Below, piece by piece: positions 55,460 through 56,693 of a DNA stretch of 64,000 nucleotides; the stretch's first letter is position 1; each line of letters begins with the position of its first letter. This stretch comes from Halanaerobium saccharolyticum. Lineage in GTDB: Bacteria; Bacillota; Halanaerobiia; Halanaerobiales; Halanaerobiaceae. The notes below the pieces were generated by a model that saw only the letters and a list, made by a program, of their open reading frames with translations, had not been told where the DNA came from and did not search any database. Where the stretch lies: positions 124,001 through 188,000 of the forward strand of contig NZ_SNWX01000003.1 in the NCBI RefSeq assembly GCF_004362045.1, in the 5' to 3' direction. Made by a program: the position numbers and the translations under genes.

Positions 55460-55488
55460 TTGACAATATAATCTAACTGATGTATAAT
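55460..55488 (+). promoter_or_regulatory. Consensus sigma-A promoter for the trpP-like gene
   Basis: TTGACA (55460-55465), a 17-base spacer and TATAAT (55483-55488). The transcript would start near 55495, leaving a leader of about 76 bases that contains the triplet repeats described next. Confidence 0.9.
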
Positions 55489-55510
55489 GATATACAATTA
55501 GAAAAGCTAA

Positions 55511-55581
55511 TAGAGATTAGCTTAGAAATTAGATGAGACTAGTAAAAACAAAAAGGAGAGATGAGTTGAGATGAGAATTAG
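55511..55581 (+). promoter_or_regulatory. Probable TRAP-binding leader (eleven G/TAG triplets) over the trpP ribosome site
   Basis: Eleven GAG or TAG triplets start at 55513, 55518, 55523, 55530, 55535, 55540, 55558, 55563, 55568, 55573 and 55579. Seven of the ten spacers are two bases, one is three and one four; a longer gap splits the row six plus five. The second group covers the ribosome site (GGAGAG) and the start codon. Bacillus TRAP, an 11-mer, binds eleven such repeats when tryptophan is plentiful and blocks trpP translation. A hairpin AAGCTAAT/ATTAGCTT (55504-55511, 55516-55523) overlaps the first repeats. Confidence 0.65.
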
Positions 55582-56104
55582 TACAAAAGATCTAGCACAG
55601 GCGGCTTTGTTGGTAGCGATAGGATTTATTTTACATGCCTTTTTCCCACCAATTGTAATGGGGATGAAACCTGATTTTGCTTTAGCGATGATGTTTATTT
55701 TATTGATCATTAAACAGGATTTTAAATTAGGTTTTCTTGTAGCAGTATCTACTGGAATTTTTACTGCTCTTACTACAGGTTTTCCTGGAGGACAGGTGGC
55801 AAATATGGTTGATAAACTATTAACTTTTCTGATAGTTTATCCTTTGATTCCAATTATAGTTAAACTGCCATCCAGAAGATTATCTACAGGAATTATAACA
55901 GCATTTGGTACAATGTTAAGTGGAGGAATCTTCCTCGGAACAGCTGCTTTGTTAGTTGGTTTACCCGGACCATTTACTGTTTTATTTTCTACAGTAGTAA
56001 TCCCGGCAGCAGTTGTTAATACCATAACAGCAGTTATAGTCTTTAGTGTAGTTGATTTTGCAATGGATGTGGAAGTAGAAGGTACTGAAAACGAAGCTGT
56101 ATAA
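55571..56104 (+). CDS. trpP: TrpP-like tryptophan transporter
   Basis: A 177-residue integral membrane protein of the tryptophan transporter TrpP family (PF17099), with about five helices. LAQAALLVAIGFILHAFFPPIVMGMKPDFALAMMFI and TALTTGFPGGQVANMVDKLLT in outline are the family's features. It is probably the substrate-binding (S-like) component of tryptophan uptake. It has its own strong promoter, a leader with TRAP-like repeats and a terminator, so it is a separate unit wedged after the flagellar genes. Confidence 0.88.
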   Translation: MRISTKDLAQAALLVAIGFILHAFFPPIVMGMKPDFALAMMFILLIIKQDFKLGFLVAVSTGIFTALTTGFPGGQVANMVDKLLTFLIVYPLIPIIVKLPSRRLSTGIITAFGTMLSGGIFLGTAALLVGLPGPFTVLFSTVVIPAAVVNTITAVIVFSVVDFAMDVEVEGTENEAV

Positions 56105-56118
56105 TTTTGATTTTATTT

Positions 56119-56149
56119 AACCTCTCATTTTTTGGGAGGTTATTTTTTT
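56119..56149 (+). terminator. Intrinsic terminator of trpP
   Basis: AACCTCTC (56119-56126) pairs with GGGAGGTT (56134-56141, two T-G pairs at most), followed by ATTTTTTT. Confidence 0.9.
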
Positions 56150-56178
56150 GTCTTTTTAATGAAATTTTAATCAGATTT

Positions 56179-56238
56179 TAGTTGCATACTCAACTAAAAT
56201 CTGATATTATGTTACCAAGATAGTTGAGTCTGCAACTA
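56179..56238 (+). promoter_or_regulatory. marR promoter with two identical operators
   Basis: TAGTTG-N6-CAACTA occurs at 56179-56196 and again at 56221-56238, centres 42 bp (about four helical turns) apart. A promoter TTGCAT (56182-56187), 17-base spacer, TATTAT (56205-56210) has its -35 inside the first site, and the second lies just downstream of the start point. Such a layout fits autorepression by the MarR-type protein encoded at 56259. Confidence 0.75.
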
Positions 56239-56258
56239 AATTTCAGAGAGGTGAAAGA

Positions 56259-56693
56259 ATGAGAATTGATGCTCCAATTGGAAAATGGATTGCTAAATTG
56301 TATAAAGATCATGATCAATTTGTTGATAATTTGCTGGCGGATTATAATTTAAATCACAGTGAAGGAAATTTACTTGTTTATTTATACAAAGATGGAGATG
56401 GGATTAGTCAAAACAAACTAAAGGAAAATTTAGCAGTAGACAAAGCTACAATTTCGAGGGCCATCTATTCACTAATTGAAAAAGATTATTTAAAGAAAAG
56501 AAAATCTCCAGAAGACGGTAGAGTTAATTTAATTTATTTAAGTGAAAAAGCAGAGGCTGTCAAAGAAGAAATAAATGATATTTATCAGCAGTGGTTTCAA
56601 ATTTTTATTGATAAAATAGGAGAAAAAGAAGCTAAAAGAGTACTTGATAATTTAAAAAAGATGTATCAGATTGTTAAAAATAGAGACAATTAG
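56259..56693 (+). CDS. MarR-family transcriptional regulator
   Basis: A 144-residue winged-helix regulator. The DNA-binding part (about 35-95) includes ISQNKLKENLAVDKATISRAIYSLIEKDYLKKRKSPEDGRVNLIYLS in outline, with the wing DGR motif typical of MarR. AGAGAGGTGA precedes the ATG. Two palindromes in its promoter are the likely binding sites. It is the first gene of an operon with an RND exporter, a LolA-like protein and an outer-membrane protein, which it probably controls in response to a small toxic or lipophilic ligand. Confidence 0.88.
   Translation: MRIDAPIGKWIAKLYKDHDQFVDNLLADYNLNHSEGNLLVYLYKDGDGISQNKLKENLAVDKATISRAIYSLIEKDYLKKRKSPEDGRVNLIYLSEKAEAVKEEINDIYQQWFQIFIDKIGEKEAKRVLDNLKKMYQIVKNRDN

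Follow-up and report, generated by a model that had tools for sequence, protein, structure and literature searches.

A predicted TRAP translational operator with a split triplet array at the trpP start of Halanaerobium saccharolyticum

We analysed a 64,000-nt stretch of the Halanaerobium saccharolyticum genome (the window), in which the tryptophan transporter gene trpP occupies positions 55571-56104 of the forward strand, the strand of all features described for this locus. The 177-aa product matches PF17099 over its whole length (E 1.4e-44) and is 99% identical to its counterpart in H. saccharolyticum MSL 17.2; flagellar genes lie upstream of trpP and a MarR-type regulator downstream. A sigma-70 promoter with 12/12 consensus matches (TTGACA-17-TATAAT, 55460-55488) precedes the gene, and both hexamers are discernible in most relatives in an unchanged layout. 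We infer an mRNA 5' end near 55495, which gives a leader of about 76 nt. Within it lie a 5' hairpin predicted by RNA folding (55504-55523), a series of G/TAG triplets and a Shine-Dalgarno sequence, GGAGAG (55555-55560). An intrinsic terminator with a 10-bp stem and a T-tract follows trpP (56118-56142), and an Rfam search of the trpP region and the trpE leaders gave no match to a T-box or any other relevant family. Further downstream, positions 56170-56243 hold a near-perfect inverted repeat, ATCAGATTTTAGTTG-CATACT-CAACTAAAATCTGAT, and then a related AGTTGAGTCTGCAACTAAAT, adjoining the MarR-family gene at 56259; the repeat is likely that regulator's own operator.

Direct reading of 55511-55581 gives eleven G/TAG triplets, six in an upstream group (TAG 55511, TAG 55518, TAG 55523, TAG 55530, GAG 55535 and TAG 55540) and five in a second group (GAG 55558, GAG 55563, GAG 55568, GAG 55573 and TAG 55579) that overlies GGAGAG and the ATG at 55571. 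A preliminary description of this DNA had reported the same count, the same 6+5 division by a 15-base gap and the same cover of ribosome site and start. It had also put seven of the ten spacings at two bases, which holds only if the count begins at an overlapping GAG at 55513; starting from TAG 55511 the spacings are 4, 2, 4, 2, 2, 15, 2, 2, 2 and 3, so that six are exactly two. An AAG at 55553 stands in register 5' of the second group. TRAP translational operators were judged here by about 9-11 copies of G/U(A)AG set 2-3 nt apart that overlap the Shine-Dalgarno sequence, the start codon or both. The leader offers eleven G/TAG triplets plus the one AAG, with a conserved core of 3 + 6, and the stretch 55553-55581 spans both 55555-55560 and the start codon (55571-55573). 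The array is not nearly continuous, being broken by 10 nt (to the AAG) or 15 nt (to the GAG); in our view the gap is a variation, continuity not being a defining requirement of such operators. We consider it highly probable that the trpP leader is a translational operator for TRAP.

Chance alone was assessed on the single leader. The run GAGATGAGTTGAGATGAG (55558-55575) is the sole succession of four triplets at spacing 2 on either strand of the 64-kb window, where 0.11 would be expected. When the leader, itself rich in GAG, was shuffled with its dinucleotides preserved, 0.14% of the shuffles reached its chain score, and 2 of 2412 tiles across the window reached it, tiles over the leader included. 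Because a purine-rich Shine-Dalgarno region favours GAG anyway, this test is suggestive only and lends modest support. The decisive evidence for the predicted site is conservation and co-occurrence with TRAP.

The preliminary description had made its proposal depend on an mtrB (TRAP) homologue in the genome, and one intact TRAP gene, sought as a homologous protein of about 70 aa above the family cut-off, is present (C27:29688-29891; PF02081, E 7e-38, 130 bits against a family cut-off of 21.3 bits), between dnaE and pfkA as judged by eye from the translations of its neighbours. The protein aligns without gaps with solved TRAP chains (residues 3-73 of 1c9s), consistent with a predicted 11-mer ring and tryptophan-activated RNA binding. 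Equivalents of K37, K56 and R58, which we take to be the RNA-contacting basic residues of B. subtilis TRAP, are kept in 40/40, 40/40 and 39/40 homologues, and all three occur in the H. saccharolyticum protein. TRAP was found in 32 of the 38 genomes of the order and was absent from all five genomes of family f7. A phylum sample contained it in 200 of 398 genomes, among them members of other families of the class. The view that this case extends TRAP beyond Bacillus is true, but the extension is modest and, given these numbers, to be expected rather than startling. The mtrB leader in Halanaerobium contains no triplet run. Anti-TRAP (rtpA) is the usual counter-regulator in B. subtilis; unlike there, none was found in the genome or the order with the B. 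subtilis protein as query, and the candidates that appeared, all in frames of 383-400 aa, were rejected as DnaJ-like zinc fingers.

Similar repeats before other trp genes, which the preliminary description had recommended looking for, are present in the trpE leader and at a stand-alone trpB. The trpE operon leader of H. saccharolyticum (G000, C2:142005-142060; L063, about 1476-1530; L078) contains eleven triplets just after its promoter, followed by an intrinsic terminator. This type of leader is kept across the whole order, and in almost every relative that has trpE, 8-15 triplets follow the promoter. Folding these leaders with the triplets held unpaired yields the terminator, whereas the free RNA adopts a competing, anti-terminator structure in G000, G016, G017, G019 and G003 among others; in G012, G015 and G008 the terminator forms in both folds. 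In most species GAGCCCAG interrupts the trpE array, and in several of them the fold of the free RNA pairs this element with the terminator region. Between the terminator and trpE, the H. saccharolyticum leader also has a long inserted foldback, some 200-250 nt in size (L063, about 1600-1850), for which Rfam gave no match; a T-box suspected by eye downstream of the terminator was rejected after the Rfam search. The distance from the start of the TRAP site to trpE is about 460 nt in this genome versus 250-350 nt in most congeners, and the trpE leader of G020 is similarly long.

The second, stand-alone trpB (G000, C28:2268-3473; L065, L097) has G/TAG triplets flanking its start codon, an arrangement kept in eleven family-f1 genomes, and is probably another TRAP target. 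In two genomes, G024 (C5:93783-95388) and G025 (C171:895-2499), mtrB lies directly 5' of trpB with TRAP triplets between them; the triplets there run continuously over the trpB start. In G028 (C6) and G029 (C68), mtrB lies directly 5' of the trp operon, with TRAP triplets before the next gene. Five-triplet runs were also seen within the trp operon of these two genomes, in the interval from trpE to trpB (C6:3544 and C68:21281), and as a duplicated site in G005 (C1:1624707 and 2450793), and are possible further targets. Across the order the five-triplet pattern occurs 56 times versus 19 for its reversal. At the four-triplet level, the H. saccharolyticum genome has six places with spacing two, three of them the trpE leader, trpP and trpB; the others (C1:35720, C30:13510 and C40:10156) looked like chance. 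The genome-wide four-triplet pattern is not enriched (7 versus 9 for the reversed pattern), so the bare count proves nothing.

Since the trpE leader of the same genomes uses a terminator, TRAP might bind the trpP leader and act there through transcription attenuation or mRNA stability, with the hairpin at 55504-55523 as a second contact or as protection of the 5' end. However, no terminator-like site is present between the trpP promoter and the start codon, and the best-conserved block lies on the Shine-Dalgarno sequence and the start codon. We consider such a mode of action very unlikely and prefer translational control by TRAP.

We compared 72 trpP leaders, some from the order and others from named genomes of the wider phylum; in the latter genomes TRAP was sought as well. 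With a triplet-chain score of 3 as the threshold, all 42 leaders from TRAP-positive genomes scored at least 3, versus 1 of 30 from TRAP-negative genomes (Fisher 2.6e-19, not corrected for shared descent), and none of 91 control gene starts in the same loci reached 3 (maximum 2.95). The one exception, L155, is a clear trpP site in a small metagenome assembly in which no TRAP was found; the assembly may be incomplete and mtrB missed. GAG runs stand at the trpP start in Caldibacillus, Fervidibacillus and several uncultured lineages that possess TRAP, and trpP of Clostridium, Romboutsia and Paraclostridium, which lack TRAP, has plain Shine-Dalgarno sites. Three close relatives from the TRAP-less family f7 keep trpP with the GAGs over the ribosome site mutated, reading GGGAGATGAATTTA / ATGAAAAC where TRAP-positive relatives read GGAGAGATGAGTTGAG / ATGAGAAC. 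Because TRAP occurs in other families of the class, its absence from f7 is most simply a loss, accompanied by decay of the GAGs, and this makes a clean natural experiment that ties the site to the regulator. The triplets and their 2-nt spacing, whose conservation in relatives the preliminary description had named as a test, are kept where TRAP is present and degraded or absent where it is not. These comparisons document the TRAP gene, the triplet sites, their conservation and a near-strict co-occurrence of the sites with TRAP. Tandem trpP copies occur in G015, G016, G018 and G020 (L041/L059, L048/L058, L035/L056 and L042/L057), each copy with its own TRAP site; one copy of the pair has a variant N-terminus, AMILRSLTPP or AMILRTLTPP.

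The same comparison weighs on the idea that TRAP does not bind here and that the GAG run merely extends the Shine-Dalgarno sequence and encodes a conserved N-terminus (MR-TKDLAQ). GGAG is part of the ribosome site, ATGAGAACA codes for MRT, and the single-leader shuffle test is only moderately significant. Yet conservation extends to ATGAGTTGAG, which is non-coding and separates the Shine-Dalgarno sequence from the ATG, and to a second, upstream triplet block, and relatives without TRAP have lost the GAGs while retaining the same protein. The run is, moreover, missing from TRAP-less clostridial trpP and present in unrelated TRAP-positive lineages, and the control gene starts show nothing similar. 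We judge this explanation very unlikely, and TRAP binding remains our reading of the run.

Leaders of the Halanaerobium family usually have 3-5 triplets first; an A-rich spacer follows, and then a set of 4-6 triplets that begins in the Shine-Dalgarno region and stays in register until shortly after the start codon. The window gene reads TAG AT GAG AC TAG (55530-55542), the spacer TAAAAACAAA (55543-55552) and AAG GA GAG AT GAG TT GAG AT GAG AAT TAG (55553-55581), as delimited by leader comparison. The spacer measures 10-12 nt in most leaders of the family and 9-16 nt overall. An upstream block of 3-5 G/TAG triplets is present in 15 of 18 family-f1 leaders, most of which have a gap like that of the window gene, and the whole site spans 52-54 nt in 9 of the 18. 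The start-site block is near-invariant among TRAP-positive relatives and lost in TRAP-less ones. Where the protein starts MRIST, which adds a 3' TAG, the upstream triplets tend to be one fewer and the total is kept. Related families have other layouts, with the start-site block alone in most f3 leaders and, in G001 (f2), eight contiguous triplets that end in the Shine-Dalgarno sequence. The split site might form a bipartite clamp, in which the 3-4 upstream triplets, the spacer and the 5-6 start-site triplets make up one turn of the ring and the spacer passes about two subunits unbound. Eleven subunits at a 5-nt pitch need 53 nt, compared with the observed spans of 52-54 nt; we find this reading of the layout attractive but hold it to be less likely than not.

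The preliminary description had noted a hairpin over the first repeats, and RNA folding bears this out. The stem AAGCTAAT-AGAG-ATTAGCTT pairs 55504-55511 with 55516-55523 around the AGAG loop, and the first TAGs (55511, 55518 and 55523) fall inside it or at its edge, in the loop and 3' arm. The hairpin was found in seven species (G000, G012, G014, G015, G016, G017 and G019), with one G-U-compatible change, and is absent from other Halanaerobium in which the start-site triplets are the same. Because only these seven have the hairpin and even among them TAG 55523 is mostly replaced by AAA, the first three TAGs are probably not TRAP contacts. The count of eleven is thus correct as sequence and partly fortuitous as a description of the site, which in its conserved form consists of 3-4 triplets, the A-rich spacer of 10-12 nt and 5-6 further triplets, often 52-54 nt together. 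In B. subtilis, a 5' stem-loop of the trp leader helps TRAP binding, and by analogy the Halanaerobium hairpin may do so too. A mini-ORF of two codons (ATG AGT TGA) starts at 55561, and one could propose that it works with the AAGCTAATAGAGATTAGCTT hairpin as a translational switch of its own, to which TRAP is incidental. Seven species keep the hairpin and the mini-ORF is present in the sequence, but other species with the same start-site triplets lack the hairpin, ATGAGTTGAGATGAG yields the mini-ORF as a by-product, and the co-occurrence with TRAP is left unexplained; we give this proposal almost no weight.

The TRAP-like leader proposed in the preliminary description is supported by the PF17099 identity of trpP, by the TRAP gene and by the co-occurrence of site and regulator. 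In a translational operator of this kind, with tryptophan plentiful, the tryptophan-loaded TRAP ring would bind the G/TAG triplets of the trpP mRNA, which would wrap round its rim and so cover the Shine-Dalgarno sequence and start codon; ribosomes would be blocked and tryptophan uptake would fall. With tryptophan scarce, TRAP would be released and trpP translated. Tryptophan-dependent binding and ribosome exclusion are extrapolated here from B. subtilis. On comparative grounds TRAP very probably also acts on the trpE operon, through attenuation, and on the start of the stand-alone trpB; biosynthesis and uptake would therefore answer to one sensor.

In B. subtilis, TRAP directly blocks ribosome binding at trpP, trpG and ycbK (PMC11255114; PMC4347634), and the trpP (yhaG) operator is attributed there to Yakhnin et al. 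2004 and Sarsero et al. 2000, as cited in these two papers. The Halanaerobium system shares with it the gene family (PF17099), the regulator family (PF02081) and triplets over the Shine-Dalgarno sequence and start codon, and direct ribosome blocking is expected by analogy. It differs in its host, in its two blocks with an A-rich spacer and, in some species, in a hairpin before the upstream block; Bacillus arrays are nearly continuous, whereas this one is split. The H. saccharolyticum trpE leader resembles the B. subtilis trpEDCFBA attenuator in its eleven triplets, intrinsic terminator and alternative free-RNA structure, unlike the trpP leader, a separate target that lacks a terminator. We found no report of TRAP regulation in Halanaerobiales in the open papers that the search covered. 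The kind of site is already known from B. subtilis trpP, and what is new is its host order and its split layout.

These results provide comparative evidence for a predicted complete TRAP regulon, comprising uptake, the biosynthesis operon and an extra trpB, in an outer-membrane lineage, the halanaerobial bacteria. The split layout offers a simple system for studying the use of an interrupted RNA site by a ring-shaped protein. If the clamp exists, it would allow the upstream block to capture TRAP first, with closure over the ribosome site as a second step.
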